Source of the DNA: a virus
IMG/VR virus record: IMGVR_UViG_3300009703_000067
Location: 1-31,828 of that record
DNA length: 31,828 bases
Direction: 5' to 3' (one strand)
The translations under genes and the position numbers were made by a program. Shown one piece after another: positions 1,610-21,397 of the stretch. The stretch's first letter is position 1. Each line of letters starts with the position of its first letter. The notes under the pieces are model-generated. The model did no database searches. It was not told the DNA's origin and saw only the letters and a program-made list of their open reading frames with translations.

Positions 1610-1820
1610 TTATCGAGATTATCATAATAAAAAAGAATCTTTTATGGAAATTACATTTTTAATATTTTCTTTATTAATATATTATAAAACAAAATATGGT
1701 TTTACATTTGCAATTACAATCCATAATCTATTATTTGAAATTACTATTACTAATTGGAAAAACAGTCCAATTAATAAATTAATAGATAAGTTAAATGCGA
1801 GGGGGGAATCAGCTAAATAG
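1602..1820 (+). CDS. Hypothetical protein at the end of the rightward operon (72 aa)
   Basis: The ATG at 1602 lies within the end of the nuclease gene and follows GGAG at 1591-1594. The protein has a hydrophobic Ile/Leu/Phe segment around residues 16-27 and a second one around 37-50, so it is probably membrane-associated. An internal Met at residue 15 is an alternative start. The stop (TAG 1818-1820) overlaps the 3' end of the convergent giant gene by 12 bases, and a strong terminator follows directly. Function is unknown. Confidence 0.55.
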   Translation: MFSYRDYHNKKESFMEITFLIFSLLIYYKTKYGFTFAITIHNLLFEITITNWKNSPINKLIDKLNARGESAK

Positions 1821-4800
1821 AGTAGCTGGTATAACTGGGGGAGAGTCATCACTTTCTCCCAGTTTTTTTACTTCTTGCGCTGCTTTTATATAAGGTAATC
1901 CTGTCATTTTTTCTATTGAATACATAGGATTTTCTAAAACTCCTTTAGAATCTTTTACAATTCTCCCAAACGGAAACATTGTATAAATATAATAATCACT
2001 CACTCTTGAGTAATCATCTTCTAACATCCCTTTAAATACAGCTGCTGGCATTCTCATAGCTGGAGGCATAACCATCTGCAAAGGAGCAATAGGGGTTGGT
2101 AAAGATCCAAAGAATGCTCTATCTCTTTCAGTTTCATCTCCAAACATCCAATCAGCAGTATCTTGCATCCAATTATAAGGAGCAGGTAAAGAAGACTCAA
2201 ATAAAGAATAGGTAAATAAACTTGCTAATCCTAAAGAGAACATATCAAGAACAGCCATTCTTTTAAATCTTTCAAATTCATGTGTTCCTTCTTGAAATCC
2301 TTTCACTTTAGCTTCTCTAAGGACTTCATTTCTAAATGCGACAGAGTTCCAACCCCACAACTGGAATCTTGACATTACCTTCCCAAGTGCAGTATCAGCA
2401 AAAGCAGGTCTGAAAGGTGAAGAATATAAAAATTGAGTAGATTTAACCCCTTTCTTTGCTAAATTAATCAAGAAAGGATGTTCATAATCTTCAATAGCTC
2501 CTCTAAAATTCTTATGAGCTTGAACATAATGAGCCATAAAAGAATCTACCCTTAACATTCTTTCAGATATTTTCATGAAATAAGCTGCTTTTTGGAATAA
2601 GCTTTCATTAATCTGATGTTTTTCTGCAATACTCATTAGAGAAGAATCTTTTAAATTAGGATTTTGTAATATCTTCTCGACAGCTTCTTCAAAGAATCTT
2701 TTAAAATTAGTACCCTTAAAATGAGGATTTAAAGATGCTTCATGTTGTAAAAAATCTTCTAATACACCATGTTTAATAGCAAATTTATTTAAAGAATCAC
2801 GACTATCTAAAGAATGATCTACATTATTTTTTAAATAATTATAATTCCTACCATCTTTCCAATTAGTTAATCCAGCAGATTGAATAGTTAAAGTAGTACC
2901 ACCCCAAATATTACCTAATCCAGATTTAGGATGAGCTAACAAGGAGGCTGTTTCGTATCTTGCTTCAATATTAGACCAATGCCTAAGCTGATTATGAGTT
3001 ATACCTCTAAGACTTTCAGGTAAATTTTTATCTTGTATATTTAAAGCTTTAGAAATAGAGTTAATTCTATTTTTCACCCTATTATCTGCCCACCAAGCAT
3101 AAGGAGTTCCTTTTAAATTCATACCCTTATCATTATAGATATATTCAGGAATAACATTAGGAAAACCCATAGATCTTTGAACATACAATTGGAAGAATTT
3201 CTCCCATTTGTCTATAACTTCAGGACTCCACTTATTTCTTACATCAAGTTTAAATTTAGATATTTGTGACCTACCAAGCATTGAAGCTACCTGTCTAAAA
3301 TACTGCTCTGTAATTCCCTTCATATATTTATGAAAAGATTGAGAAGATGTATCCCAGCCAGACAAATGTGTTTCTCTTGAATACATAGAACCTACAGTAG
3401 CATTAATACTTTGAAAATCTATAAATTCTTTTTCATTTCGCTTAACCTTCTGTAATTCACTTTCCCACAATTCATTTTCTTCAATATCTCTTAAATGATA
3501 ATCTCCTGTAAGACTATAATGTTTTAATATCATCTTTCTAATCTGTTCAGCTTTTTCTTTCTTAGGCAATCCAGATTCTTGTAATTGCTTTACAGCCTTA
3601 TTTAAAGATTTAAGTGCAAGAGCTTTATCACTTGTTATATGAGGAAAATATCCATCAACAATCTCTCCCATAATGTGATCATTAAAGTTCTTACGCATAT
3701 TCATACGAGTTTCCCATTTAACAGTATGATCATCTATTCTTTGCTCTTTAGCAAGCACTCTAATACCTTCAATACCAAAAGTCATAGGAATAGGCTTACC
3801 TGTAGCAATAGCATGTCTAACATCGTTTAAATAACGATTATAGTCAAATTTAGCATCTACCCCCTCATAATCATCCCTATGGAGACGATATTTCTCCATT
3901 TCTAATCTATCACCCTTTAAGACCTTATACATTTTTTTACCCCATCGAGTATAATGTTGGTCTATCTTTTCAACTAATTCTTCACCTGTAAGACTTTTTC
4001 GAACACTCTTGCCTTCTTCATTCTTAACAAGAATATTAAATTCTCTATTTTTTATATTATATTTACCACCTGTATAGTATTTTTTTACTTCATTCCAATG
4101 ATTTTGATACGCTAATGCCTTATTTTTATCTGTTAAAGTATTAGCATATCTTAGTTCCATTTTCCTGATACCTATCTTTTCAATCATCTCTCCAATAGGA
4201 ATACCACCAACCCTTTCTTCCTGTAAGGAATTTAAAAAAGAAAGTTCTTCATTAAATTTATTCTTTTTATCTTCAAATGCTGCCATAGCATTCTCCATAG
4301 ATCCATGCATAGAAGATGTTAATCCATGCATAGCAGAAGCAGGTCTATATATTTTACCACTATAGACTTCAAGCTTTCGAGGATCTAAGACAGCATCAGC
4401 TAAGAAAAATCCACCTTCTTCATAAAGATCTATATGCCTTCTCATTAAATCTCTATTTATAGCTTCAGGAAACATCATCCAATGCCACTTTCTAATTAAA
4501 GGTCCTTTGTCACCCTTTTTTATAGAATCTGTTAATGCTTGCCACCATGTACCAGTCTTTATAGATTTTAATGACTTATTAAATACTCCTATATCATACA
4601 TATTCGCAGAAGCCATATCCTTATTTGTTAAAAATCTAAATAATCCATTTATATTTCCTGAATTAATTGTAGTAAAATGAGACACATTATCTAACAATTC
4701 GTCAACCATTTTATGTTCTTTTTCTGACAGTTTTCTTGGTCCTCTATCAGTTATTAGATCCTTAACCTTATTTCTCAAATGTTCTGACTCAAACATTTGC

Positions 4801-7800
4801 ACTTCAGTTTTCACACCATCAATATTTATATTTTCTTTAAAACTAACAGCTTCTTGTATTTCCTCACCTAATTCTGCAACAGAATCTCTTAAATCAGCCT
4901 TCTTAAATTGTTTTTTATATTCATTTAAATATTCAGCGATAACTTTATCAGAAACTTCAGGAGAATTAAATCCAACCTTTAAAGAATATGTTCTACTTGC
5001 TTTATCAATCAATCTACTTGAGATTAAATCTAACAATCTTTCTTTTTTACCAGAAGCAATATCTGCAAGATTAATTACTTCCTTAATTCTTTCAAGATCG
5101 CCTCTTCCAAAACCTGTAACCATCATTGAATCAAATAAATCTTTTTGATTTTGACTTAATTCACTCTTAGCTTCATTAATTAACCTATCAGCTTCATTCT
5201 GATTTAATGTATTACTTAATTTTTCACCCTCTTGTATAGCCTTTCCGTCTCTCTTCTCTAATTTTTCAGACATATCAATAAGCTCTTTATACTCTTGTTG
5301 ATTTAATTCTAATTCTTTACTACTATTTAAAGCTTTTATTACATCGCCTAAAGAAGCATCCTTTAATTCAGTTTTACCATCAGCAATCTCTTGCATTTCT
5401 TTATTTGCAATCGACCATAATCTTTTTATCTCTTCAGTCTTTTCATGTATCTCTTTAATCTTCTCAGGACTTTCATTTTTAGCATATTTAGATATAAGCT
5501 TTATACCTATAATATCAGACATATCGTTTATTATAAAATCTCTTGTTTGATTTACAATATTTTCTATCATCCTAATTTTAGTTTCAGGAGTCAATTTTTT
5601 TTTCTTGAACTTACTACTTTTTAATTCTTTAGGAAAAAACTTATCTATTAAATTCCATTTGCCTTCATTATGGATAAATGCTCTCATATTCTCAGGTTTA
5701 TACAATTGTTCCTTTAATACTACATTAATTAAACCTCTCTCCCCTTGCCATTTTACAGGGAAATACCTTTGCATTGGACCTTCTAAATACTCATAGTTTT
5801 CTTTAATATATAAATAATCCTCATACATCTTCTTTAATCCTGCTACATCAACCCTTTCTAATATATCTTCATGCCATTTGATTTTTTCTACAAGTTCAGC
5901 AATACGAGGTAATATTGTATCTCTTGCACCTTCAGATTTATTCTTTACTACCTTTAATTTTTCAAGTATCTCATAATAAGTCCACTTTCTACCTTCTTTA
6001 AAATTCTTACCAAATAAAGCAGAGTTCATTTCATGGTAATCTTGGAATATAGCCTGTTTCTTTTCAAAAGCAGACGCTTCTTTTTTAGCCTTACCATTCT
6101 TTTTCTTAACACCCTTAAATTCATACTTAAAATGAGCATCTAATATCTGTTCTTGATAATGACCAGCTGTTTTTAATCCTGCAAAGTCCATAGGATCTAA
6201 TGGAAATGCAACTGCTGCTCTTGATATTTTCTTTGCATTAGCTAATTCTTCTGGAGTAACTCTTGCTGTAGCCCTTATAGAGCCTGTTTTATTACCATTA
6301 CTATCAAAAGTATCAATCCAATCAGTAGTCCCCTTTACACCATCCTTATTAACCATGTTTGCTATTTCTGAATGAGCTGCAACAGCAACTTGTTTAGCAA
6401 CTACTGCTGGTCCTAAAACTTTACGACCTGTAGCCTGATTATCTGATATTTCTTTTCTTCTTACTGGTGAATATGTAGCAGCCTTATGTTTAAACCTTTT
6501 TTCAACCTCTTCTGGAGTTCCTTCAGTAAACAAATCAACCATTTCTTTATCATCTTTACCCTCTTGAAAGATTAAATTCCCAGAAGAATCCTTAGTATAA
6601 TGTTCTTCTCTTTGAGCATTGTAAACCTCTTTCCATTCTTTAGGCATATTAAAGAATACAAAAGCCTTATCACCATCTAAATCTGCACCACCTAATGCTC
6701 TCATCTTTTCAGGATGTAATACAATCCCATACCCCAATCTGTCAGTAAACCCATGAAATGTACCTAATTGAGCGCCTGAAACAGAATCCATAGGTATTCT
6801 TGCATTTACAGCTTCTAATATCTCTTTATATTTTGTTTCTTCTTTTTCTGATAAATCACCAGACTTATATTTTTCCCATATTTTATCTAATCTTAATTTT
6901 CCATTAGGTAAAAAATCATCATATATTACTTTCTTCTTCCAACCCTTATCTAAAAGAAATAACTTACTATTTGTATTTAATTCAGGATACATCTTCTTTA
7001 TATAAGGATCATAAGGTCGAAGATACGCTGTTCCTGAATTTGGCATCTTAGGTCTTGTAGCTCTTTTTACTACATAATTCCGTAATGCTTTTTGAACATA
7101 ATGTCTAACATTTTTATGATTTATTACAGATATATCACCACCACCAAGACTTAGCATTCTATCAATAGATGAATCAAAAGTAACATTTTCATTCATTATT
7201 TTAGCACCTTCGCTTGAATTTATTTCACCACTTTCAATTAATCCCTCAATATATTCAGTATTTAATTCTAAGATTTTAGAATATGCTTTAGCTGTAAAAT
7301 CTGCATACTTAGGGTCTCTAAACATTTTAAACATTGTTTCAACATTTATATTATCCAAATTCTCAAGTAATTTTTCTTGAATTACAAGAGAATCACCATC
7401 TAATTTTTGAAACTCTGCAATAGCTTTATTCATATCTTCCGTTCCCTTGAAAGATTTTAAAATTAGGGTTGCATGCATATCTCTTACTACTTTAGGAACA
7501 AGTTTTAACATTGCAGGATCACCTGTATATCCAGTCAAAGATGTAAGCATTTGTTTAGGAGTCATTGCATTATCTATCATGTGGTTGTTTGATAAAACTC
7601 CCATCATTACTTTAACATCCTTTAAAGGAACCTGATACATTACATCTTCAATACCCTTTGCAGGAGATATAAGTTTTACATCCCTTTTATATGAAAACAA
7701 TCCTGAATTTTCATTATAAAGATAATCTTTAAATGTAACAAAATCAAGAGCTGCTGAGTCAGCATTATACTCATCAACAAATTGAATACCTTGCTTTATT

Positions 7801-10800
7801 TCTGCTTCAGTAGGATTTCTAATAAAGAAATTATCTTTTCTTATTATCTCTCTATTTAATTTTTTTGACCATTGTGGAGTCGTTACCCAATGTTCAAATT
7901 CAGCTTTAATATCTTCGTGTTCTCTTAATAATTGTTCACTATCAATATTTTCTCTCGCCCAAACTTCATTTTTTGTTTCATATCCTTTTAAACCATTTTC
8001 ATCAAGTTCGTAAATCTTCCTGCCACCACGCTGTTTAGCAGAAGAATCATATATCATATAATGTATATTATTCGCATCCATATATCTTGATAATTCAGGA
8101 CCAGCATCATGCATTGCATACTTACCTAACAATGCTCCTAATTCTTCATGAGGAGACACAATAAATGATTTTTGAAAACCACCATTAACATCATGTCCAC
8201 TTTCTTTATTTTGAGCTTGTAATAATTTAGTGTTTACTAAGATACCACCATCAGTTGCTTCTTCAAATTTATCAGCACCTACAGCCTTACCACGAAAATC
8301 TTTTATTACCTTACTACCAGCTGCATCCTTTACAAATACAACATTGACTCCCGCACCTTTGTCACCCATATCTACAAGATTATCTAACTTATATTTATTT
8401 CTTAAAGTTTCTCTTACAAAATTTCCATCAATAGAATAACCATTAGTAAACCATATCTGCTGTCTTTTATTAAAATCTATAACACCCTTTTTATTACCAA
8501 CATAGTGTCCTCCCATAATAGCATTTAAGCCCTTTTCAAAGACTGTATGTTCAAACCGAGGAATGGTTTTTAAACTAAAGCCATTCAAACTAACATCCCA
8601 TAATGCGTTGGATAAGTACTGTTTTTTCAGCCAACTTTCAACATCAGCTTCTTCCATCCATTTATGTTTCTCTTTATATTCTTCAAGGTCTTCTCTGAAT
8701 GTTTTTTCAACACCTTTAACATTATTTTTCAATGTGTGCCATAACGATTTAGTATTACTCTCGTTTAATATTGGATGATATTTAACATAATAATTTCTTT
8801 CATTATCACCACTACCACCAAAATAATGCATATCTTTCTTATCCATAGCTCGTTCAACTTTAGCCATAGCTTCAATATATTCTTCCTTAGCTTCTATGCC
8901 AGCATCACTTCTCTCAACAGGATTAGTTGCTTGATCTCGTATAATAGATGTTTTTTCTTTTATATATTCTGAAAAAGTAACTTCTTTTGTCCTACCAGTA
9001 GCATCTCTCATGATAATATGGTCTAATATCTGAACAGGTTTTTCATTATAGTCTTCAAATGTCCTTGATAACCCATGCTCTTCAATTATATTATCATAAA
9101 TTTTTTCCATAACAAATCGTGGAGCTAACTGTGTCTTAGAATTACTATTTCGTGTAACAGGATTTTTAGTATCTAATGTTTCTACTGTTCCATCGGTATC
9201 TATAAAAGAAACATGCTGTATTTGAAAATCTTCAATTCTTCTTTTAAATATCTGTCTAAATCCATCATAAACATCTTCAGAAAATTGTTTATTATATTTT
9301 TCAGACAATTCATCTACAAATATCTTAGATGAATTATTTAAATTTTCTGGCTCAATAAGCTCATCCATTCGAATTTCAAGCTCTTTCGTAATATCGATAA
9401 CTTTTCTATTTATCTCACCAGCTGTCTCACCTTCCAAAGTATCTTTTATGTGTTCTCTTACAAATCGTTCAGTTCTTCTTGTTGGTAATATTTTGACAGT
9501 TTCACCAGGATCTATTGATTGTTCTGCTCCAATTTCAGGCTCTACAGGCTTTATTTCTTCTATCGGGACATCAAACCCACTTCTAATCATAAGGTTCTTT
9601 AAAGCACCCTTCCCAGCCTTTGACGGCTTTACTATGCCTGAAATAGAAAAGGAAGACTCTAATGTAGGTTTCTCAACCTTCTTAAACCCACCTCCACCTT
9701 CAGATTTATACCATGTATAACCACCTTTTTTATTATTAGCATCATTAAACACATATACATCTTTACCCATATTTTGAGCTAATTTCATCGTCAAACCATC
9801 AATACTATTTGGCGGTTTATAACCAGAACCTAAAGGAGCAACAACAATAACCTGATCAACATCTCTTACTCTAAAATATTCTTTTCTATATAAGTTATGT
9901 CTTCTAATTTTTTTTTCTAAAGTTCCCTTTGTAGGTACTCTAATACCTATTTCATTCATTGCTTTTTCTACAAAGGTATCTGCAACAGGGAGTTCTGAAT
10001 TACGAAGTTTTACAACTTCACCTATTCCTGTTTCTTTTAATCCTTCTTCTTGTGGAGTTCTAAAGTGTGTCATTCTAAGTCCAACACTATCTGCTATCTT
10101 CCCAAACCATCTTTCCATAGCATTACCACCTGAAACACCTATAAAATCAGGATTATATTTAGCTTGAATTTTAGCTTCTGCTAACTTATTTATATTACCT
10201 ACAGGATCACTACTGTTTAAAAGAGCTTCATATTCTTCTACGCTTACATCCTCACCAAGCAAATCTTTTTGTCTTCTAAAAAATTCATTAAGAGTCTCAA
10301 CGGCTCTATGCTGACTTAATAGTGTATCAGACATCTCCTTAATAACTTCCTTTTCTCTTGGATGTAATCTTTCCCATTCAGGTAATAATTCAGGATCATT
10401 TACATTCTCTTTTAGCATCTTACCAGTGTATTTATCAGCAAGTCTCTTTTCCCAAGGAGTTTCATTAAATCCAAAATAAGCACCAAGAACATAAGAATAT
10501 ATTTGTTCAGGAGTAGTATCTCCTCTTACAGTAGAAGGAATACCTTCATAAAGAGATGCAACTAAAGACTTTAAAGCCTTGTCTCCCATTTCATTGCCTG
10601 AATTAATAGAATTACCAATACCTCTAAATACACCACCAGTAACCCCACCATGCATAAAAGCAGTCATCATATCATCTACACCACCTCTCCATGAAGAAAT
10701 AGCAGATGCAGTACCTAAATGAAATCCACCTTGAACAATATCTTTTACTAACGGCTGAGTTAAGAAGTCAAGGACATCCTTACTTGCTTCTCCACGATAC

Positions 10801-11294
10801 TTATATGCTTTTTCGGTAAGAACTTGGGCAACACTATTCACCTTCTTCTGAACAGCAGATGCACCCAACATTGGAACAGACATTCCCTTTAGTTTTGGGA
10901 TAGCTTGAGATAAAGCTTCAGCACCTTTGATACCTTTAAATACATTTGGTACAAACCCAACAAAACCTGCAAGATGCCCTAAGCTTCTTGCTATACCTTC
11001 ATATTCGTTTTGTGGAGCCTTACCTACTTCAAGGGTAGTAAATCCTTCTACAAACCCCGACCCTGCCTGCTTAACCATACTTGCAAGTCCAAAATCATCT
11101 GCATTAGGGTCTGTATTAAAGTCCATTTTAAAATGATCAGCATGAGTCTTTATATCGTCTAAAAAATCAGGTTTAAACGAATCAGGACTCTGTTTATAAG
11201 ATTCAATTGCATTCCTAATAAATTCTGGTGAATAATTAGGAGTAAATTGATGATTTACTTCAGGTTCAGGCTGTGTTAATAAAGTGTTTGCCAT
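1809..11294 (-). CDS. Giant virion protein with multisubunit-type RNA polymerase active site (3161 aa)
   Basis: A single 3161-codon frame without interruption. Residues 1497-1545 carry the beta-prime double-psi-barrel signature: R1499-I-P1501, L-H1527-P, then A-D-L-D-G-D with aspartates 1538, 1540 and 1542. The R-to-first-D spacing is 39, against 35 in E. coli beta-prime, and the HP-to-D spacing is 11 against 10. Upstream, L-G-K1058-Y-A and S-S-A-K1087 are candidates for the paired lysines of a beta-type barrel. Residues about 475-565 resemble a Rossmann/SLOG-like module (V-I-V-V-A-P, D-V-Y-V-F, S-G-I). The N-terminal 250 residues include Gly-rich hydrophobic helices. Residues 1750-2200 are coiled-coil-like, and a hydrophobic helix lies near 3013-3032. 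The C-terminus resembles large phage polyvalent or ejection proteins. Gene order makes it the last internal virion protein, probably ejected with the DNA to transcribe early genes. No Shine-Dalgarno precedes its ATG. The polymerase call rests on motifs, not on activity. Confidence 0.72.
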   Translation of the reverse strand: MANTLLTQPEPEVNHQFTPNYSPEFIRNAIESYKQSPDSFKPDFLDDIKTHADHFKMDFNTDPNADDFGLASMVKQAGSGFVEGFTTLEVGKAPQNEYEGIARSLGHLAGFVGFVPNVFKGIKGAEALSQAIPKLKGMSVPMLGASAVQKKVNSVAQVLTEKAYKYRGEASKDVLDFLTQPLVKDIVQGGFHLGTASAISSWRGGVDDMMTAFMHGGVTGGVFRGIGNSINSGNEMGDKALKSLVASLYEGIPSTVRGDTTPEQIYSYVLGAYFGFNETPWEKRLADKYTGKMLKENVNDPELLPEWERLHPREKEVIKEMSDTLLSQHRAVETLNEFFRRQKDLLGEDVSVEEYEALLNSSDPVGNINKLAEAKIQAKYNPDFIGVSGGNAMERWFGKIADSVGLRMTHFRTPQEEGLKETGIGEVVKLRNSELPVADTFVEKAMNEIGIRVPTKGTLEKKIRRHNLYRKEYFRVRDVDQVIVVAPLGSGYKPPNSIDGLTMKLAQNMGKDVYVFNDANNKKGGYTWYKSEGGGGFKKVEKPTLESSFSISGIVKPSKAGKGALKNLMIRSGFDVPIEEIKPVEPEIGAEQSIDPGETVKILPTRRTERFVREHIKDTLEGETAGEINRKVIDITKELEIRMDELIEPENLNNSSKIFVDELSEKYNKQFSEDVYDGFRQIFKRRIEDFQIQHVSFIDTDGTVETLDTKNPVTRNSNSKTQLAPRFVMEKIYDNIIEEHGLSRTFEDYNEKPVQILDHIIMRDATGRTKEVTFSEYIKEKTSIIRDQATNPVERSDAGIEAKEEYIEAMAKVERAMDKKDMHYFGGSGDNERNYYVKYHPILNESNTKSLWHTLKNNVKGVEKTFREDLEEYKEKHKWMEEADVESWLKKQYLSNALWDVSLNGFSLKTIPRFEHTVFEKGLNAIMGGHYVGNKKGVIDFNKRQQIWFTNGYSIDGNFVRETLRNKYKLDNLVDMGDKGAGVNVVFVKDAAGSKVIKDFRGKAVGADKFEEATDGGILVNTKLLQAQNKESGHDVNGGFQKSFIVSPHEELGALLGKYAMHDAGPELSRYMDANNIHYMIYDSSAKQRGGRKIYELDENGLKGYETKNEVWARENIDSEQLLREHEDIKAEFEHWVTTPQWSKKLNREIIRKDNFFIRNPTEAEIKQGIQFVDEYNADSAALDFVTFKDYLYNENSGLFSYKRDVKLISPAKGIEDVMYQVPLKDVKVMMGVLSNNHMIDNAMTPKQMLTSLTGYTGDPAMLKLVPKVVRDMHATLILKSFKGTEDMNKAIAEFQKLDGDSLVIQEKLLENLDNINVETMFKMFRDPKYADFTAKAYSKILELNTEYIEGLIESGEINSSEGAKIMNENVTFDSSIDRMLSLGGGDISVINHKNVRHYVQKALRNYVVKRATRPKMPNSGTAYLRPYDPYIKKMYPELNTNSKLFLLDKGWKKKVIYDDFLPNGKLRLDKIWEKYKSGDLSEKEETKYKEILEAVNARIPMDSVSGAQLGTFHGFTDRLGYGIVLHPEKMRALGGADLDGDKAFVFFNMPKEWKEVYNAQREEHYTKDSSGNLIFQEGKDDKEMVDLFTEGTPEEVEKRFKHKAATYSPVRRKEISDNQATGRKVLGPAVVAKQVAVAAHSEIANMVNKDGVKGTTDWIDTFDSNGNKTGSIRATARVTPEELANAKKISRAAVAFPLDPMDFAGLKTAGHYQEQILDAHFKYEFKGVKKKNGKAKKEASAFEKKQAIFQDYHEMNSALFGKNFKEGRKWTYYEILEKLKVVKNKSEGARDTILPRIAELVEKIKWHEDILERVDVAGLKKMYEDYLYIKENYEYLEGPMQRYFPVKWQGERGLINVVLKEQLYKPENMRAFIHNEGKWNLIDKFFPKELKSSKFKKKKLTPETKIRMIENIVNQTRDFIINDMSDIIGIKLISKYAKNESPEKIKEIHEKTEEIKRLWSIANKEMQEIADGKTELKDASLGDVIKALNSSKELELNQQEYKELIDMSEKLEKRDGKAIQEGEKLSNTLNQNEADRLINEAKSELSQNQKDLFDSMMVTGFGRGDLERIKEVINLADIASGKKERLLDLISSRLIDKASRTYSLKVGFNSPEVSDKVIAEYLNEYKKQFKKADLRDSVAELGEEIQEAVSFKENINIDGVKTEVQMFESEHLRNKVKDLITDRGPRKLSEKEHKMVDELLDNVSHFTTINSGNINGLFRFLTNKDMASANMYDIGVFNKSLKSIKTGTWWQALTDSIKKGDKGPLIRKWHWMMFPEAINRDLMRRHIDLYEEGGFFLADAVLDPRKLEVYSGKIYRPASAMHGLTSSMHGSMENAMAAFEDKKNKFNEELSFLNSLQEERVGGIPIGEMIEKIGIRKMELRYANTLTDKNKALAYQNHWNEVKKYYTGGKYNIKNREFNILVKNEEGKSVRKSLTGEELVEKIDQHYTRWGKKMYKVLKGDRLEMEKYRLHRDDYEGVDAKFDYNRYLNDVRHAIATGKPIPMTFGIEGIRVLAKEQRIDDHTVKWETRMNMRKNFNDHIMGEIVDGYFPHITSDKALALKSLNKAVKQLQESGLPKKEKAEQIRKMILKHYSLTGDYHLRDIEENELWESELQKVKRNEKEFIDFQSINATVGSMYSRETHLSGWDTSSQSFHKYMKGITEQYFRQVASMLGRSQISKFKLDVRNKWSPEVIDKWEKFFQLYVQRSMGFPNVIPEYIYNDKGMNLKGTPYAWWADNRVKNRINSISKALNIQDKNLPESLRGITHNQLRHWSNIEARYETASLLAHPKSGLGNIWGGTTLTIQSAGLTNWKDGRNYNYLKNNVDHSLDSRDSLNKFAIKHGVLEDFLQHEASLNPHFKGTNFKRFFEEAVEKILQNPNLKDSSLMSIAEKHQINESLFQKAAYFMKISERMLRVDSFMAHYVQAHKNFRGAIEDYEHPFLINLAKKGVKSTQFLYSSPFRPAFADTALGKVMSRFQLWGWNSVAFRNEVLREAKVKGFQEGTHEFERFKRMAVLDMFSLGLASLFTYSLFESSLPAPYNWMQDTADWMFGDETERDRAFFGSLPTPIAPLQMVMPPAMRMPAAVFKGMLEDDYSRVSDYYIYTMFPFGRIVKDSKGVLENPMYSIEKMTGLPYIKAAQEVKKLGESDDSPPVIPATLFS
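1833..1869 (+). terminator. Rho-independent terminator of the + strand operon
   Basis: A 13-bp stem (1833-1845 with 1852-1864; 11 Watson-Crick pairs and two G-T pairs) closes a six-base loop TCATCA. Seven T residues at 1863-1869 follow at once. Read on the - strand the hairpin has no T run after it, so it should stop only rightward transcription. It sits 13 bases after the last + strand gene and wholly inside the last codons of the convergent 3161-aa gene, and so does double duty as protein-coding sequence. Confidence 0.85.
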
Positions 11295-11299
11295 TCATT

Positions 11300-12484
11300 C
11301 TAAATTGCCGGAGGCATTATATTACCAACGGGCATACCTGGGAATCTTGAAACTTCAGGACCTATATTTCTCCTAACTTCAGAACTCATTGCACTTAATA
11401 AAGGATTAGATCCTTTCAGATTTAAAAAGTTCATACCATTTTCTTGTAACCCTATCGTCATACTATCTATTTGGTTTGTTAGGACGCTTAAAGACTTCTC
11501 ATCTAATGTGTTCCATGCTTCAGTTGCATTTTTACCACCCTTACCTGCCCACACTTTTTGCATTTGAATGTTTTTAACTAATGCTTTTATCGTTTTTGTG
11601 TCGTTCTCAGCTATAGCCTTTATAAGTTTTTGTTTAAGTTCAGGTGAAGCACCTACAGCATACTCCATTAAAGTGCCCACTTTTCCATCTTTCAGACCAC
11701 TTATCCCTTTTCTAAAAGTATCATTATAAGCAACAAAAGCATTCTCTTTAGTGGGGTCAAATCTTAATTTAGATAAATTAGCACCTTTACCCTTTTGATA
11801 TTTAAATCTTTTATCTTTACTCAAAAATTCAACAAACTTAGTTCTAAAACTATTAAACTTAGTTGAAGTAGCTTCATCAACATTATCTTTTAAAAATGTC
11901 CTTATAAATTCTCTTTCTTTTCCTGAAGCTCCAGTAAATTTTTTAGGATCAATCCCTGATTTTGTTAATGCATCATGAAACTTGTCAATACTTTTCTTCA
12001 TAGCACTACCTGCCTTTGTCTTATCAACTACTTTTTTAGCTTTAAAAACGCTCTGCATAGATTTAGGTAATACTTTAGCTAATCCAGGTGCTACTTTTCC
12101 AGCAGCATATCCTATTCCTTTAGCTATACCTAATCCAGTCCAAGGAGTTGGAATCATACCTACTGCTCCACCTATACCAGCAGCTGTTTTCTCAGTTTCA
12201 CTCAAATAGTCTCTATTGGGTAATAATCCAAATAAGGCTGTATCAGCTGCTTCATAAGCACCAACACCCAACGGATTTTTTTCTAAAGTTTGAGGTAATG
12301 CCATAGGTAACCCTTCTTGCATTGCCATTGCTTTTAATTGCTTGTAATAACTTCTCGGATCATCCGAAACAGAATACGGATTTACTTGAAATTGAGCTAT
12401 TAATTTCTTTAAATCATTTCTTCTTTTAGCTTCAGGATTTGTTACAGGTCCCTGTAATGCACCTCTTACATTATATAATGGCAT
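11300..12484 (-). CDS. Probable internal (ejected) virion protein (394 aa)
   Basis: The start follows AGGAGG with short spacing, and the gene ends five bases before the giant gene. The protein has a polar N-terminus and then a Gly/Ala-rich hydrophobic stretch about residues 90-140 (A-G-I-G-G-A-V-G, T-G-L-G-I-A-K-G-I-G-Y-A-A-G-K). Stretches like this occur in phage proteins that insert into the host envelope during DNA delivery. The rest is Lys-rich and helical. The giant protein has a similar Gly-rich segment near its own N-terminus. No enzyme motif is seen. The assignment as an ejection protein is inferred from composition and from position between the transglycosylase-like protein and the putative virion polymerase. 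Confidence 0.6.
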   Translation of the reverse strand: MPLYNVRGALQGPVTNPEAKRRNDLKKLIAQFQVNPYSVSDDPRSYYKQLKAMAMQEGLPMALPQTLEKNPLGVGAYEAADTALFGLLPNRDYLSETEKTAAGIGGAVGMIPTPWTGLGIAKGIGYAAGKVAPGLAKVLPKSMQSVFKAKKVVDKTKAGSAMKKSIDKFHDALTKSGIDPKKFTGASGKEREFIRTFLKDNVDEATSTKFNSFRTKFVEFLSKDKRFKYQKGKGANLSKLRFDPTKENAFVAYNDTFRKGISGLKDGKVGTLMEYAVGASPELKQKLIKAIAENDTKTIKALVKNIQMQKVWAGKGGKNATEAWNTLDEKSLSVLTNQIDSMTIGLQENGMNFLNLKGSNPLLSAMSSEVRRNIGPEVSRFPGMPVGNIMPPAI

Positions 12485-12496
12485 AAAGCCTCCTAT

Positions 12497-13501
12497 TTAT
12501 TTTTTAAATCCATAATGATCTAATGGGTCTCTTAATTTTGCCCCCATATATCTTATAATATCACTATAGGTCTGAGTTCCCCACTGATCACTGGTCCATG
12601 ATAAATTATCAGGGTCATACCTTAAAACCAAATCAATAGCGTCAGGATGGTTTAATATAAGATTATTTCCTTTTTTAGTAAATTTCCAACCCTTTTTCTC
12701 AGCAGAAGCAATAATTGTATCTAATTGCTTCATTGCATCATCGGCTCTACCACCTTGATCCATCCCTGGTAATTGAGTAACATACTTCTTAGCATGCCCC
12801 TTAGTCATGTGCATAACCTTATCTTCTTTAGTTGCACCTGCACCAACTGCACCACCCATTTTATTTTTAATTCTTTTAGCTATTTCAGGAATACTTTCTT
12901 CATCCATATATGGTTCAATATAATTAGACCACCATTGTTTTGCTTTTGGATCATTTTGGATTTTCTTTGAAAGTTCTTCTTCCCAATCGTCACCAGGGTT
13001 ATTCCACATCTTTTGAGCATCTCTCTGCATTCTTTCAAGCATATCATAAGAATCAATTCTTTGTTGATCCTGCATTGCTGTAGGTAGCTTGTCAGCAATC
13101 ATAGATGTAAGTTCTCTTCTAATTGCACTTGAATGTAAAGGATTTGAAGTAACCCTATTTAACATATTAGCTTGCATTTCAGGTTTATTACTCTTAGTAT
13201 CAAACTCATCAAATGCTTTCCCATAAAAGCCTGTATTTGAAGTATTAAGTGCTCCAGGTCCTGTAGCTGCCCATAATGGAGAATTTTGAATAGTTTCAGG
13301 CTGTTTACCCTGCATCATTCTACTTAAAAAACTCTGTTTTTGAGGTATTCCTGCAATACTATTATTAAATATATCTTCTGCTCTTCTTTTTGTATATGCC
13401 TGCCCTTGCCTTCTTCCTTCTTCAGCAGCTGAAGCTCCATTTACAGTATTTTGTGTGATAGGATAAACACTCCCACCATAATTTAATTGTCCTAAACCCA
13501 T
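12497..13501 (-). CDS. Probable internal virion protein (334 aa)
   Basis: The ATG follows AGGAG with a six-base spacer. The protein starts M-G-L-G-Q-L-N-Y-G, nearly the same as the start of the next upstream product (M-G-L-G-M-L-N-F-G), while the remainder differs. The middle is helical and charged, with P-E-T-I-Q and D-D-W-E-E-E segments. The C-terminal 80 residues form a mixed alpha/beta region including A-S-A-E-K-K-G-W-K-F and L-V-L-R-Y-D-P-D. No enzymatic family is recognised. Its place in the ejection block and the shared N-terminus suggest a virion component packaged together with its neighbour. Confidence 0.55.
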   Translation of the reverse strand: MGLGQLNYGGSVYPITQNTVNGASAAEEGRRQGQAYTKRRAEDIFNNSIAGIPQKQSFLSRMMQGKQPETIQNSPLWAATGPGALNTSNTGFYGKAFDEFDTKSNKPEMQANMLNRVTSNPLHSSAIRRELTSMIADKLPTAMQDQQRIDSYDMLERMQRDAQKMWNNPGDDWEEELSKKIQNDPKAKQWWSNYIEPYMDEESIPEIAKRIKNKMGGAVGAGATKEDKVMHMTKGHAKKYVTQLPGMDQGGRADDAMKQLDTIIASAEKKGWKFTKKGNNLILNHPDAIDLVLRYDPDNLSWTSDQWGTQTYSDIIRYMGAKLRDPLDHYGFKK

Positions 13502-13510
13502 ATATTACTC

Positions 13511-15529
13511 CTATGGAAAATTATATCCACGAGGAGTTGATTGAAATGTTTCTCCTGCATAGACATCGTTATGTTTATTAAAAGAAGCCAACCTATCATC
13601 TCTATCAGAATAATCCCCTTGCCAATGATAATCTGCCCATAAATTGTCAAGACCACCATTACCACCAAAGTAATTATTTAAATCTTTAGTACTTCCTTCT
13701 TGTGTCAATAAATTCCCTAAAGCTAAAGCAGATTGCATTTCAGGTGCTAAATTAGTTGCATCTGAAAACCCACCTTCTTGTAAATCAGTAAGCCATTGAG
13801 GTATGTCTTGACCTTGATTCTTATAAGCATTCATGCTTCTTTGTATAGCAGTAGCCATAGAATCACCTTCTATTTGATATAATCCTTTTCCTGGACCACC
13901 ACCATCCTGTAATTGATTCGGATCCATACTTTGCCCAGTTTCATGGAAAGCAATTCTATTCATCATATCTCGTATTTGAGCAGGATCTCCATTTGTCATT
14001 TGAGTAGCTAAATCTAACATTCCTTGATATGAATTAGTACCATTTTGTAATGCGTAACCTTCTTCTCTTCTTGTAGGTAGATTTGTTTTAGTACCTTCAG
14101 GCTCATCAAATATTTGATTTACTGAGTCACCTTTCGCCCATTCATTTGAAAGTAGCTCTTTAAATTTGTCATTCATAACATCAAGATTATTAACATCAGG
14201 ATTACTTGCATTTATAGTAGCATTATTCAGCCTATCATCCAAAGTAGGAAGTTGATTCATTACCGAATTAGGATTTTTAGCTGCATCTGTTTGAGCTTTG
14301 TATGTTTCATATTCATCAGAATAATCCATTGGAGACGGACTATAAGGCTCTTTAAAGCCACCTTCAGGAGTTAAAGCATTAGGATTGCCTGGATCTAACC
14401 CTTCTTGCCCTTGCATATACTCACGATACCCTTCTAAATTCTGAACAGATGATGGGTTTGATGGAGCTACTCCTTGCGGAAGATTAGTTGGAAAAGCTGG
14501 ACCATTTAACTTCTGAACAGCTGTTGGATTCTGAGGAACTACTCCACGAGGAAGAGTCAAATTACCATCCGTATCAAAAGTTTCAGTAAAATTAAAATTG
14601 TTCGGTGTATTATTCTGTGCATTTTGAACAAAATTACTTGCATCTAAAAAAGAAGGATCTTTTCTGAAATTCATTTCGGAAAATGGAGATTCAGTTGGAG
14701 GTGCAGATGTTACTTCATTTACTAATGGTTTATTTGGATTTTCAAATCCTATTGATTGTTTAACATCTGTTTTAAAATTATCCCAACTTGAAGTACCTCT
14801 TCTTCCACCATAAAGATGGTTATCCGTTGTTACATCGCCTTGATCAAATGCTCCACCACCTAACATTAAATCAGCAGCATTAGAATTAGTAGTTCCAGCA
14901 GCAATTTCTGGAATTTCTGGGGGAGGATTGGCTGGAGCATTAGGTCTATTAGCAGCTGCCGTAACACCTCTTTGCTTCATTACTGCCTGTAATCCTTCAG
15001 GGTTATTAATCTTTAACCAATTTAATTTTTCCATTTCTTCTGGAGAGATATTTCCTGCATCAAGACGATCGAACATTCCACTTACATCCCAATTACCCAT
15101 ATCCTGCCTATTAAATATATCTGTTTTGCTACCTAAAGAACCTTTGCCTTGGAACATCATTTGATTATATAAACCTTCTGTAATTGGCTCTCCTGTATTT
15201 GGATCAAAGTAACTTCTTCCAACCGCTGGAGGATTTGGAGGAGAAGGAATATTTACATAAGGACTACTATTAAATGTTTCTATAGGAGCAGGATTTACAT
15301 AAGGAACTCCTTGCTTTGGTTGATGAAGAGGAGAATATATATCCACATTAGTAGGAGTATTCACATTAGTAGGAGTTTCTACAGCTGGTTGGTTCGTATT
15401 TGGAGGAGCTTGATAGGGCTGAACATTTACTCCATTAAGAGTCGGATTGTTTTGACTTCCACCAGACTTATTATTAAACATCCCTAAAAACCCATTCTTA
15501 TTACCAAAATTTAACATTCCTAATCCCAT
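13511..15529 (-). CDS. Internal virion protein with lytic-transglycosylase-like domain (672 aa)
   Basis: The first 480 residues are low-complexity, rich in Asn, Pro, Gly and Gln. They include a near-repeat G-V-V-P-Q-N-P-T-A-V-Q / G-V-A-P-S-N-P-S-S-V-Q. Residues about 505-650 look like a soluble-lytic-transglycosylase fold: A-F-H-E530-T-G with the likely catalytic glutamate, then G-G-P-G-K-G-L-Y-Q-I-E (544-554), the counterpart of the G-L-M-Q-I motif. The expected role is local opening of peptidoglycan so the ejection apparatus can cross the wall, as T7 gp16 does. The product shares its first nine residues with the 334-aa neighbour. The start lies three bases after the preceding stop, with only weak ribosome-binding similarity. 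Confidence 0.7.
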   Translation of the reverse strand: MGLGMLNFGNKNGFLGMFNNKSGGSQNNPTLNGVNVQPYQAPPNTNQPAVETPTNVNTPTNVDIYSPLHQPKQGVPYVNPAPIETFNSSPYVNIPSPPNPPAVGRSYFDPNTGEPITEGLYNQMMFQGKGSLGSKTDIFNRQDMGNWDVSGMFDRLDAGNISPEEMEKLNWLKINNPEGLQAVMKQRGVTAAANRPNAPANPPPEIPEIAAGTTNSNAADLMLGGGAFDQGDVTTDNHLYGGRRGTSSWDNFKTDVKQSIGFENPNKPLVNEVTSAPPTESPFSEMNFRKDPSFLDASNFVQNAQNNTPNNFNFTETFDTDGNLTLPRGVVPQNPTAVQKLNGPAFPTNLPQGVAPSNPSSVQNLEGYREYMQGQEGLDPGNPNALTPEGGFKEPYSPSPMDYSDEYETYKAQTDAAKNPNSVMNQLPTLDDRLNNATINASNPDVNNLDVMNDKFKELLSNEWAKGDSVNQIFDEPEGTKTNLPTRREEGYALQNGTNSYQGMLDLATQMTNGDPAQIRDMMNRIAFHETGQSMDPNQLQDGGGPGKGLYQIEGDSMATAIQRSMNAYKNQGQDIPQWLTDLQEGGFSDATNLAPEMQSALALGNLLTQEGSTKDLNNYFGGNGGLDNLWADYHWQGDYSDRDDRLASFNKHNDVYAGETFQSTPRGYNFP

Positions 15530-15532
15530 AGC

Positions 15533-16075
15533 CTAATTCCCTGGTACAAAGCTGTTAATTCCTTGAATTGCATAAGGACTTAACATGCTTAATTGTTTTT
15601 GATTCCAAGCATTATTAATATCTGTATTAGATAATTGAGCTTGAGAAATATTCTGTAAATAAGAACCAACATTATCAGTTCCTTGTTGGTACATTGATGC
15701 GCCCTGTTGCTGTAACTGTGGCATCATTGTAGCCATTGTAGAAGCAGTATTTTGATTAGCATCTTGATACATAGATTGATTAAGCTTATTAGACATTGCA
15801 GGATTACCATATTGACCAGCCGATCTTTGGTTCATTAAAGCTCCAGCAAGCATATTATTCCTATTTTGCAATCCAACAGCATTACCCATATTTCTTTGGT
15901 AAGCACCATTGACATTCATCATGTCTTTTCCATAATTTTGTTGGAACTGACCTGCTTGCAATTGAGGGGCAAGAGTGTTTTTCAACTGTCCAACATCATA
16001 TCCCTTTGGCTTGAACATTTGGTTCATGCCATACTGCATACCCATACTAAGCATTGAAGCTGTAAAAGGATCCAT
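15533..16075 (-). CDS. Gln/Asn/Met-rich internal virion protein (180 aa)
   Basis: The start follows AAGGAG (16081-16086), itself preceded by a 9-bp hairpin. The protein begins M-D-P-F-T-A-S-M-L-S-M-G-M-Q-Y-G and is unusually rich in Gln, Asn, Met, Ala and Gly with almost no Cys or Trp. It is predicted to be nearly all helical. Small, Gln/Ala-rich helical proteins at this position, just after the tail nozzle gene and before a transglycosylase protein, are typical of podovirus ejection proteins (compare T7 gp14 in role). No sequence family can be named with certainty; the role is inferred from composition and order. Confidence 0.55.
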   Translation of the reverse strand: MDPFTASMLSMGMQYGMNQMFKPKGYDVGQLKNTLAPQLQAGQFQQNYGKDMMNVNGAYQRNMGNAVGLQNRNNMLAGALMNQRSAGQYGNPAMSNKLNQSMYQDANQNTASTMATMMPQLQQQGASMYQQGTDNVGSYLQNISQAQLSNTDINNAWNQKQLSMLSPYAIQGINSFVPGN

Positions 16076-16119: not shown

Positions 16120-16315
16120 TACTTGCTATATTTGATTTATTTTTTTCTATATCTGACTTCATAGATTCAATTTCAGATTTTAAATCATTAATTTCACTTG
16201 TTAATTTACTTGATAATAAACTTACTTCATCAAATACTTTTTTAAATATTCTGTCATTTGTAGGATCATTAGATCTTACTGGTGAAGTTATTGCAGAAGC
16301 TCCTTTTAAGATCAT
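16109..16315 (-). CDS. Small coiled-coil protein (68 aa)
   Basis: The ATG overlaps the stop of the tail nozzle-like gene (ATGA, 16312-16315). After a short N-terminus (M-I-L-K-G-A-S-A-I-T-S-P-V-R), residues 25-62 show regular heptads (V-S-L-L-S-S-K-L, I-N-D-L-K-S-E-I, M-K-S-D-I), a clear coiled coil. It may be a small virion or assembly factor that trimerises or dimerises. No family is recognised. Confidence 0.55.
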   Translation of the reverse strand: MILKGASAITSPVRSNDPTNDRIFKKVFDEVSLLSSKLTSEINDLKSEIESMKSDIEKNKSNIASNHP

Positions 16316-19300
16316 TTAACAGTCTTTCTTCTATATACTATACCAAAACTATCTATGCTTCTAACTTGGTTTTTAACCCATATTTCTGCTGTCTTAGCTG
16401 TTCTTCCAGTTAATAATTTATAAGTATTATCATCCTTTTTTTCTATAGTTTGATATACTCCATCAGTAACTAAAAATATATTATTATTAGTTGTATCAAC
16501 AGGATTACTTACAGTTCCATTAACAGCACCTGTCACTTTCAACTTATAAATCTTTTTCTTCTGAGTATCAGCACCCATTGTAAATAATTTTGATCTCCAC
16601 TCAAAAGCTTTACTAATTTTATCATTCTCTAAATATTTATATATTTGTGAGCCATCAGAAATTAGAATAGAACCAGATATATCTTGAAAAGCAGTCTTTA
16701 CATAAGGACTACTCCATCTATCCCATCTCTGTCTTGAAATATTCCATGCCCAAGCTTTCCCAACTGTTCCTTCTTGCCATATAACATCTGCTAAAAATAC
16801 TACAACAGATTGCATTTTAGAATCAAACAATAATCGAGGAGTATAACCTTCATTTAAAGTAGTTTTTATCCCTTTATGATAAGAATGTGACCAATCAGGG
16901 AATCGTGAAGACTTTAATATTGCATCACCAATAGGTGTTAAGTTTGCTCCATCATGTTTATATATATTTGTTTTAGAAGCGAAAAACATACCAAATTCTG
17001 TTACAACTATTGAATCATTATTAATACATCCAGCACCATCATAAATATCTTCAATTGCAAACGAATTAGGGTCAATCCTATAAGTTGTATTGTCACTAAA
17101 TGCGTATAATCTGCCTGCAAAACCCTTGATACAGTTTACTTTCTGTGGTAATAATGTATAATCTACAGTATAATCAAATTTAGCTGATTGTCCTGGTTTT
17201 GAAAAGAAAATATAATTAGGTAGATATTCTTCAATTTCAGGAACATAACAGTCTGTAACAGCCAATATATTATTAACCATAGTTGCTATCTCAAATTGAA
17301 CAAAAGGTCGTAAGATAGTCTCTGACATATCATTAATCACTTCATAATCAGCTATAGAAGTATTATTATCTGTAAAGAATGTAGTTTGGGAATCACTACT
17401 TGAATCATAAGACCATTCTTCTGATATTTTAATAGACTTGACTAATGTATATTTGCTATTTTTAATTGATCTATATACATTAAGATGAGTTATCCTTGAA
17501 GATATGTCTTTAGGTATAGTAATAGTCACTTTTGCTGAATTTGCAATGGTATTTGACCATGTAGATTTTGTAAGTGAACTTTCTAAGTAATTATCATAAG
17601 TATAGGTAAGTTTATAATCTAATTCTTGACTTTCAAAAAGACCATTAGAACCAGTATCCTCAATAAGGACTCCTGTATCATTCTCTGCCAATACATCTTC
17701 AACACTTTCAGTATTTGAAAGAGGTATTGTTTTAGTCCCTATATTCATATTTCCTTCAGTAGAAATACATGAAAATGTTGCTTCTGTAGTATCTATTGAT
17801 AATAAAGAAGACATCGGATTAGAAAATGATGTAAAATTAAATGATTGATCATCAAATAATATTGGATTACCACTTAAATCTGCAACAGGAGGAATAGTAA
17901 ACTTTGTAATCTTATCATCAGATAATGAAAATATAAAATTATCAGCATTCCCTGTAGTAATGGCTTTAGACAAGATTTTATCTGTATCGGCAATGGCTAA
18001 TAAACTTCCATTGCTCACTCCTTTCATTTGAAATGACCCATGCATTCCTAATAATCCTGCATGATTAGGACTTACAAAATATACTCCAGATTTTGCAACT
18101 TCAAGCGAATATGCTGCATTGAAGGAATCATACCCTGAAGTTTCGCCTAATATACTTAAATTATCATATAGCGAAACATAATTATGAAGCTCTCCATTTA
18201 TTTTTTTACTGAAATTAACAGGGACACAAAGACCTGTACCTCCGTTATGAAAGCTTAATGAATGTCTTTTAGGGATAATATACATGATATCTGAAGCATT
18301 ATATCTGACAAACCCTGCCCATTTATTATTTATATCTAAATCTCCAATATATCCATCATCAATTGGATCGTAAGAACCAGAATGTGTAGTAACTGCTGAC
18401 CCATTAGTATTCCTATATGAATACCGACCTCTCCAGTTAGTACCAAGTAAATTAACATAGGAATAATAATATAAAAAATGGTCTCCATACTGTCCTGGAA
18501 GGTGACTCATAAATGCAGTTCCAAATGAAACAGGAGTTGCATCAGTTAATGTTAAATCATTAATTTGCGTTGTAGAAACATCTACTGTTCCTTTAAATAA
18601 ATATCTACCATCCTTTTGAGTTGTAGTATTCCCAAATGAATGCAAGATTAAAGGAGCATAATCTTCTATATTTGTATAATCTATAGGAGTCATTAATACC
18701 CATAATGTATTTCCTGTAGGCTCATAAGCTAATCCTCCAACTTCAACTCTTAAATCATTATGCAAATTATCAAAATCAAGGTTAAAAGATCTATCAAAAC
18801 TACTTAATGCTTCAAATGCAGTGTCATTTATACCTGATTCATCACTAAGTACAAGATCTAATACATTTATACTTGACGCTGTTTCATCATATAAGAGTAA
18901 TCCCTTTTCACCTGACGAACCATTATGTTCATCATAAAGACACATTGTCCCTACTGCAATACCTAAATCAGCTGTTTCTTTTATTAATGGAGTTGCTAAA
19001 GTATGATTATATCTATATAACTTTGAATTTCCTCTTTTCATACAATAAACATAATCACCTATTACTACAGTATGATCAAATGATTTAGAAAAAGAATTTA
19101 TAGAAGGAGCTAATAATTCTAAATTATGAACCTCAAGATCCCCATCTTTTTCTTTTAATAACTGAGGAGGAGAATCTTTTGAACTATAAAAAATATTAGT
19201 TTTCCCATCTTTTATAGTCTTCGATGCATCTGTTGTTACAATAGTAGTTGTTTTATCTTCTTGATAAAATCCATCTTCTTCTTTTAAGGTAGTTATTGTT

Positions 19301-20677: not shown

Positions 20678-20921
20678 CGTGTATCATATCTAAAATCTTT
20701 TCTAAATCACCCTTAATGTCATCAAGCTTATGATTCATCCCAATAATCATCACTTCTTGAACTGCAATATTAGTCTTTAATTCACTAATTGCATCTGCAT
20801 TTTCTTTTACTTCATCTGTCAATGGGATAACAAACCAACCTAATATTATCGTTACTACAAATGTTATTGCACTCACAATAGGTCGTAAACTTTCTATTGC
20901 ATTATTCACATTCTTATTCAT
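20664..20921 (-). CDS. One-span membrane protein with coiled coil, holin candidate (85 aa)
   Basis: The ATG overlaps the endolysin stop (ATGA, 20918-20921) and is preceded by AAGGAG. Residues 15-34 form a hydrophobic span (I-V-S-A-I-T-F-V-V-T-I-I-L-G-W-F-V-I-P-L). The remainder is a charged helix with heptads (I-S-E-L-K-T-N-I, L-D-D-I-K-G-D-L-E-K-I-L). The layout matches that of the next gene, so the phage has two proteins of the same design in tandem. Direct coupling to the endolysin makes it the better holin candidate. Holin families are too diverse to name one. Confidence 0.55.
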   Translation of the reverse strand: MNKNVNNAIESLRPIVSAITFVVTIILGWFVIPLTDEVKENADAISELKTNIAVQEVMIIGMNHKLDDIKGDLEKILDMIHDGHK

Positions 20922-21397
20922 ACTTCACAACTCCTTTTAAACCAACCAACCCAGTATTTTTCCATCTTAGGTTTCTTCATTACTAATTCAGCATAATACA
21001 TAACTCTATATGCTCTCAATCTAAAATCTTCTAAACTTGATGCAGCTCCTATAGTCATTGTACCTATACGACCATCCATCGCTATTTTATTCGAGTTCTT
21101 GCTATTACAAGCTTCTTGAAGTATCTTAATGGCTCTATAACCACCCATATTAACACACATATCAAAATAAATATGCCTGATATGATTAGAGAGATCCCCA
21201 ACCCTATACTTGTCCCAATAGTCTCGCTTGTATAATTCCTTAGCCCTCTCAACAGTCAAACCCTTTATATCTTCATCAGGATAAGCTTTCTTACTTATCC
21301 CATATTTCGTTTCTCCACCAGGATCTACAGGATCGTTAGTATAACCTCCCTCGTGCATTAAAACCTTCTCTATGATGTCATTAAACTCACTTAACAA
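20918..21397 (-). CDS. Endolysin, GH108-type muramidase (159 aa)
   Basis: The N-terminal motif H-E16-G-G-Y-T-N-D-P-V-D-P-G-G-E-T-K-Y-G-I-S is diagnostic for glycoside hydrolase family 108, with E16 as the expected catalytic acid. The C-terminal part (D-G-R-I-G near residues 109-113, then the L-R-A-Y-R-V-M-Y-Y helix) matches the peptidoglycan-binding module usually joined to it. It would cleave the peptidoglycan glycan backbone at lysis. No signal peptide is visible, so it needs a holin for export. The start is a TTG with AGGAG upstream; no in-frame ATG precedes the catalytic motif by a sensible distance. It is 159 aa, close to the family's usual 160-180. Confidence 0.88.
   Translation of the reverse strand: MLSEFNDIIEKVLMHEGGYTNDPVDPGGETKYGISKKAYPDEDIKGLTVERAKELYKRDYWDKYRVGDLSNHIRHIYFDMCVNMGGYRAIKILQEACNSKNSNKIAMDGRIGTMTIGAASSLEDFRLRAYRVMYYAELVMKKPKMEKYWVGWFKRSCEV

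Follow-up and report, generated by a model that had tools for sequence, protein, structure and literature searches.

The N4 virion RNA polymerase (gp50 of the Schitoviridae) is a giant, single-chain podovirus enzyme, which is packaged and injected for early transcription and which is a T7-type, right-hand polymerase. Among two-barrel enzymes, gp66 of the crAss phage phi14:2 owes its annotation as a virion protein to proteomics, and its structure, that of a DNA-dependent RNA polymerase, has been solved (PDB 6VR4). In phage P23-45, gp96 is a two-barrel RNA polymerase fused to a giant virion protein and is likely injected (PMC10770324), and P23-45 gp64 and YonO are non-virion enzymes of the same broad kind (PMC5467207, PMC10770324); further viral two-barrel RNA polymerases appear in part of the supplementary data of the P23-45 study (PMC10770324). 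Few single-chain two-barrel RNA polymerases are known from phages; they diverge extremely and are missed by ordinary homology searches.

The window considered here, namely the whole 31,828 bases analysed from an IMG/VR record, carries a gene for a 3161-aa protein, very probably a two-barrel RNA polymerase on a single chain that is packaged in the virion as part of a giant protein of the ejection type. Judged from sequence and predicted structure, the protein belongs by every testable feature to the single-chain two-barrel RNA polymerases, in which it would form a new, widespread lineage with a new genome context and an internal core, its length being not unusual for the class. The sequence-only reading had proposed a new branch of virion-packaged single-chain polymerase, which stands as the best reading, the term virion-packaged being drawn from gene position and the analogy with phi14:2, N4 and P23-45.

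The giant gene and its family

The ORF was confirmed at its full length with an ATG start (Table 1), and its complete homologues are roughly 2.8-3.6 kaa long. A first family search with only 70 residues round the catalytic motif returned 26 loci, successive alignment-based scans of IMG/VR brought 154 and then 197 relatives, and one IMG/VR scan with the C-terminal module alone as query gave 267; overall identity of the relatives to the window protein in the polymerase core is about 30%. The window protein matched no family in Pfam or PHROGs, PDB sequence searches with single sequences and with profiles returned nothing relevant, and tblastn with the core and the C-terminal module against INPHARED (50,697 phage records) gave no match, whereas gp66 matches 145 of these records. 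Besides, the Pfam scan revealed no T7-type RNA polymerase domain in the window protein, nor among the families listed for 43 members. A search of genome contigs found no relative of the giant protein, and hence no host or prophage clue.

Regarding the parts outside the polymerase core, the N-terminal region exhibits family invariants (G80, G84, G110, F111, G194, G216, G220 and G271) and had no match of note in PHROG and the PDB. The C-terminal module is the best conserved non-catalytic part and surpasses the polymerase core overall; it weakly matches phrog_11358, of unknown function, in 13 of 17 members and is possibly a shared ejection-protein domain, its structure model being poor (pLDDT 55, too low for a fold search). 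Within the core, the insertion has a pLDDT of 31-46 across most of its length, with a column occupancy of 0.12-0.24 over residues 1101-1200 in the family alignment. In several relatives (alignments A2 and A3), the giant protein contains extra domains inserted in one or two members, namely a SLOG-type cpYpsA (PF12694, 3.6e-17), a DUF7831 (4.6e-29) and a GNAT-like domain, which indicates that the polymerase core tolerates large insertions. In another relative (L076, near-identical to L072 and L079), the giant ORF stops at 2374 aa, not 3059 aa, through a stop or frameshift that is possibly a sequencing or assembly error.

Table 1. Features of the giant protein and of the virion module in the window (residue numbers refer to the giant protein)
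Feature	Position	Strand	Basis
Whole proposed virion RNA polymerase protein, 3161 aa	1809..11294	-	ORF call and homologues
N-terminal glycine-rich, mildly hydrophobic conserved region preceding the core, residues 80-275	10470..11057	-	Family invariants
Predicted two-barrel RNA polymerase core, residues 780-1808	5871..8957	-	AlphaFold model; matches to QDE-1, RDR2, P74 gp62, P23-45 gp64/gp96 and crAss gp66 span the range
N942-K943-R944	8463..8471	-	Invariant in 109 non-redundant sequences; alignment to crAss
Beta-type barrel (DPBB-B): D1015-G1016, catalytic-type lysines K1042 and K1058, then SxxK1087xxG1090	8019..8252	-	Invariance, crAss collinearity, model
Poorly ordered insertion missing in most relatives, residues 1095-1240	7575..8012	-	Occupancy and pLDDT
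K1247-Q1248, near-invariant, just ahead of helices leading to DPBB-A	7551..7556	-	Family alignments
Beta-prime-type barrel (DPBB-A), catalytic segment: R1499-x-P1501-x-D-S-x-S-G...H1527...G-A-D1538-L-D1540-G-D1542-K	6651..6800	-	Motif, family conservation, weak PF05183 match
Long helices after DPBB-A, residues 1610-1646; R1613, G1623 and R1624 invariant (alignment A3)	6357..6467	-	Model helices 831-845 and 848-867
C-terminal module, predicted all-helical, residues 2600-3161	1812..3497	-	42-48% identity across relatives
Four virion-module ORFs directly upstream of the giant gene (394, 334, 672 and 180 aa)	11300..16075	-	Similar layout in relatives
1229-aa virion structural protein	16312..20001	-	phrog_511 internal virion protein, 2e-07; phrog_3287 virion structural protein, 1.5e-07
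Major capsid protein	30290..31639	-	phrog_1328, 2.9e-21

Both halves of the active site and the predicted fold

Residues 1494-1548 (EAVNARIPMDSVSGAQLGTFHGFTDRLGYGIVLHPEKMRALGGADLDGDKAFVFF) contain R1499-I-P1501, L-H1527-P and A-D1538-L-D1540-G-D1542, with an R-to-D spacing of 39 and an H-to-D spacing of 11, exactly as the sequence-only reading had reported for a signature it deemed hard to obtain by chance. DxDGD by itself is weak evidence, since it is found in 924 of 20,000 shuffles of the 3161-aa protein (4.6%); the full three-part pattern with its spacing came up in 1 of 20,000. Among 133 distinct motif segments from relatives, gathered largely with patterns that contain the motif, R-x-P and the three aspartates are present in every one, all 131 that keep R-x-P-x-D-S have an R-to-D spacing of 39, and the position of H1527 is occupied by H (130), N (2) or R (1). 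An unbiased test of conservation was provided by the loci found through the C-terminal domain alone, 64 of which were evaluable: RxP..DxDxD is kept in 63, and the remaining one, cut by a contig end, still has DLDGD. The aspartates, on whose conservation in homologues the sequence-only reading had staked its case, are thus retained. Its wording of the motif can be narrowed: the aspartates hold and H1527 does so in nearly all segments, the proline of LHP does not (G, S, A or other in relatives), and the middle glycine of D-x-D-G-D is not essential, with DLDID in three relatives of the 64-locus test and DLDAD in others. In the divergent members (DLDID, DLDAD, DKDGD), the residues between the aspartates vary, but the aspartates do not.

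The second half of the active site, missed at first reading, is a beta-type barrel lying upstream on the same chain, which reads TDGAI...(N/G)KSFIVSP...GALLGKY...M...SAAKQxG in the family. In the core alignment of 109 non-redundant sequences, N942, K943, R944, D1015, G1016, K1042, G1053, K1058, K1087, G1090, K1247, P1415, L1469, R1499, P1501, S1506, G1515, F1516, G1536, D1538, D1540, D1542 and E1564 are kept without exception. This set was chosen by a regular expression demanding R-x-P, GF[TS] and GxDxDxD, so that only residues outside the expression, such as the lysines, provide an independent test. The divergent members shown retain both lysines, even where GALLGKY has become GALLNKG.

An AlphaFold2 model of residues 780-1940, built with 43 sequences, reached a pLDDT of 80.5 and a pTM of 0.78; pLDDT exceeds 90 over most of both barrels, and values under 50 occur mainly in this protein's own insertion. 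K1042 and K1058 map to predicted strands (model positions 261-268 and 276-284), the DxDxD loop sits before strand 764-769, and the long helices that follow would mark the place of the bridge helix. In Foldseek against the PDB, the top match is the virion RNA polymerase of crAss phi14:2 (6VR4, E 3.6e-07, prob 1.00), followed by QDE-1 (2.3e-05) and then cellular beta-prime chains (E. coli). With VIA-align 2, Z reaches 19.3 for QDE-1 (505 aligned, 5.2 A), 18.3 for RDR2, 13.4 for P74 gp62, 13.3 for P23-45 gp64, 11.9 for crAss gp66 (6VR4; 678 aligned, 4.6 A), 10.9 for P23-45 gp96 and about 9 for cellular and viral largest subunits; as Z depends on length, the higher value for QDE-1 than for gp66 does not mean closer kinship. 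TM-scores to solved RNA polymerases are low, at 0.24-0.35 for the query, as large insertions and domain shifts would lead one to expect. In overall fold, the top structural matches are all two-barrel RNA polymerases, and the structure prediction round residue 1540, proposed earlier as a check, does recover that fold. A search of BFVD gave matches to two unnamed viral models (E 7e-52 and 2e-38), with crAss proteins further down, so that UniProt already holds relatives without a function.

At the level of sequence profiles, PF05183 (RdRP, QDE-1) weakly matches the window at 6522-6698 (E 9.7e-4), below its curated cut-off (11.8 bits vs. 23.8), and of the 14 genomes used as controls, B. subtilis alone is matched too, presumably through YonO. 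PF00623, for the cellular multisubunit beta-prime, has no match in 16 records and matches 14 of 14 controls. In hhalign, the best match to the crAss RNA polymerase aligns motif on motif with a score of 38.5, as against a mean of 17.4 and a maximum of 24.0 in 60 column-shuffled controls; the match is significant only locally, its absolute probability being low (8%) because only about 70-80 columns align. Besides, 18 ordered invariants are shared in sequence with crAss, a number reached in 0 of 20,000 shuffles (shuffle maximum 17). Against P23-45 gp64 and gp96, hhalign aligned the DxDGD strand only, as it did against YonO with a score not above shuffled controls, and no crAss, P23-45, CRP-810, Mel-JY34 or Kuura protein was matched by hmmsearch with any section of the giant protein.

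Genome context, proposed mechanism and rival explanations

In the window, the capsid gene and that of the 1229-aa virion protein are followed downstream by the cluster of internal proteins, after which comes the giant gene. In each of 22 loci, this gene lies at the 3' end of the co-directional virion-module genes, or close to it, and faces genes of the opposite strand. Of the ORFs directly upstream, the 672-aa one displays by eye a transglycosylase-like HET...GLYQ motif. By tblastn, the capsid protein matches those of Mel-JY34, CRP-810, Kuura and VS-ABTNL-3; RxP..DxDGD is absent from the giant proteins of the capsid-related cultured phages CRP-810, Mel-JY34 and Kuura. Fifteen larger records of relatives, sequenced over 28-56 kb, contain one copy of the giant gene each, and no second two-barrel RNA polymerase was detectable in them with the family profile. 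One relative of 54 kb (G001) encodes a P22-like portal, a Terminase_6C protein, DnaB/primase, AAA proteins and a JAB and ThiF pair. No tape measure gene was recognised, and these phages are probably short-tailed, as the P22-like portal suggests.

Several other features of these genomes were observed. In the early region of G001, a Prok-JAB domain (PF14464, 5.7e-4, below cut-off) is encoded near a ThiF/E1-like one (PF00899, 4e-12) at L120:1167-1907 and L120:2695-3477, and similar-looking ORFs occur in L124 and L127. Upstream of its first early gene, L122:10940-11220 is hairpin-rich (CTATGCC-TTTA-GGCATAG), folds better than shuffles (z -3.5) and is a possible place for hairpin promoters in this one relative; when three relatives were searched for short motifs that might mark early promoters, no repeated 10-mer of note emerged. 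Another relative (G012, L126:3683-10891) has, at the position of the 1229-aa virion protein, a 2403-aa ORF with no Pfam match. In the window itself, a 182-aa ORF (22174-22722, minus strand), by eye SAM-dependent methyltransferase-like, is located between fibre-like genes, and an endolysin (20918-21397, minus strand; phrog_315, 2.6e-47) adjoins two small ORFs, holin-like by eye.

The gene itself, the conservation of both active-site halves throughout the family, the match in fold and the place of the gene at the end of the virion module are shown computationally; by analogy with the described enzymes, we infer catalysis, a DNA template, presence in the virion, injection and a role in early-gene expression. 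Residues ~780-1810 would be the polymerase: K1042 and K1058 would lie in a beta-like double-psi barrel, which is followed by a beta-prime-like barrel, in which D1538, D1540 and D1542 would hold the catalytic magnesium, with the bridge-helix region behind. The N-terminal glycine-rich and C-terminal helical flanks most likely serve packaging and ejection, for which the crAss001 ejection model (PMC10172136) is the analogy used: the protein would be packaged, ejected with its helical flanking parts and then refolded. The polymerase would arrive in the cell together with the DNA or earlier and would transcribe from this incoming DNA the early genes, which are on the opposite strand adjoining the giant gene, before host RNA polymerase is used.

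That the same enzyme is unpackaged, serving in the infected cell for middle or late genes and lying at the end of the virion module by happenstance, is unlikely, even though YonO and gp64 provide precedents as non-virion members of the same broad kind. These two are single-purpose proteins of only 839 and 616 aa, whereas the protein here is of giant size with large conserved N- and C-terminal fusions, as in the N4, crAss and P23-45 virion RNA polymerases, is the sole such polymerase in each record examined and ends a co-directional structural operon at all 22 loci. More unlikely still is that the two-barrel enzyme uses a different template or makes a different product, being either RNA-templated like QDE-1/RDR or a DNA polymerase like PolD: the highest VIA-align 2 Z values are to the RNAi polymerases QDE-1 and RDR2, but the DNA-dependent crAss enzyme comes first in Foldseek and has the most residues aligned with VIA-align 2, the phage is a dsDNA virus, and QDE-1 too takes DNA templates according to structure entry titles. 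The fold match as such does not decide the template. Slightly less probable again is a former RNA polymerase, catalytically dead and now only a structural or ejection protein, which would suit a giant protein located where ejection proteins sit and of which large parts are not polymerase; the aspartates, both lysines and R-x-P are nevertheless among the most conserved residues of a region of ~30% identity, where selection would not be expected to keep them for a scaffold. Finally, a chance likeness of three short motifs, conceivable for DxDGD alone, is refuted by the rarity of the full pattern in shuffles, the family-wide invariance and the fold match, and its probability is negligible.

Meaning and comparison with known systems

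With the packaged two-barrel polymerase as the preferred reading, small genomes that have a P22-type portal would be added to those with probably injected enzymes of this kind. A very large protein family of uncultured viromes, nameless until now, also gains an annotation. Each new lineage reveals the true minimum of residues in the active site of cell-type RNA polymerase, and this family gives more than 100 non-redundant sequences with the constellation KR, DG, K, K, K-G, KQ, R-x-P, S-G, GF, DxDxD and E, in a core of ~1,000 residues tractable for biochemistry. A bolder idea, rather doubtful at this stage, is that wholly uncultured, widespread, compact podovirus-like phages independently took the N4 strategy with a two-barrel enzyme as sole phage RNA polymerase, which would be a separate deep branch between the crAss RNA polymerase and the eukaryotic RNAi polymerases; if true, such a branch would bear on the origin of the QDE-1/RDR enzymes.

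Like phi14:2 gp66 and the Crassvirales enzymes, the top Foldseek match, the window protein has both predicted barrels on a single chain within a giant multidomain protein. In an alignment with seven crAss-type RNA polymerases and gp66, the invariants come in the same order, i.e. KR, D, K, K, M, K-x-G, Q/K, R-x-P, S, G and DxDxD, which in gp66 are K893-R894 (K943-R944 here), D962, K1012, K1027, M1050, K1065-x-G1067, Q1116/K1119, R1322-x-P1324, S1330, G1345, G1359 and D1361-D1363-D1365; K1012, K1027 and K1065-x-G1067 are in the order of K1042, K1058 and the K1087 region, where ESAVKQRG here can be compared by eye with ESAVKVG in crAss. Unlike gp66, the protein displays no BLAST-level similarity to it, and most members have DLDGD where crAss has DFDID. 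With a length of 28-56 kb, a P22-type portal and a capsid akin to CRP-810 and Mel-JY34, the records also appear to differ from the crAss genomes of ~90-105 kb, as the sequence-only reading had sensed in speaking of a different kind of genome, and one two-barrel protein is found here vs. several giant transcription-related proteins in crAss phages (PMC7886860, PMC10172136). Its remark that the protein is longer does not hold against all known examples, one crAss RNA polymerase ORF being about 4,550 aa and P23-45 gp96 5,002 aa (PMC10770324). Because the genome type appears different and direct homology lies below ordinary sequence detection, the giant protein is not shown to be a Crassvirales RNA polymerase proper.

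The likeness to QDE-1/RDR2 (PF05183) consists of the fold over ~500 residues and the weak profile match at the DxDGD segment, whereas the window protein is viral, has its core embedded in a 3-kaa protein and falls below the PF05183 cut-off. P23-45 gp96 and gp64 and P74 gp62 are likewise phage two-barrel enzymes, gp96 being also fused to a giant virion protein; its polymerase is at the N terminus of the tape measure protein of a long-tailed phage, whereas the core is internal here and the virus probably short-tailed. YonO of SPbeta is likewise a single-chain two-barrel RNA polymerase, with DNDGDKA vs. DLDGDKA here, but is an 839-aa non-virion protein of a prophage. As for the N4 virion RNA polymerase, the two-barrel enzyme proposed here would share its strategy by convergence, the enzymes themselves being unrelated.
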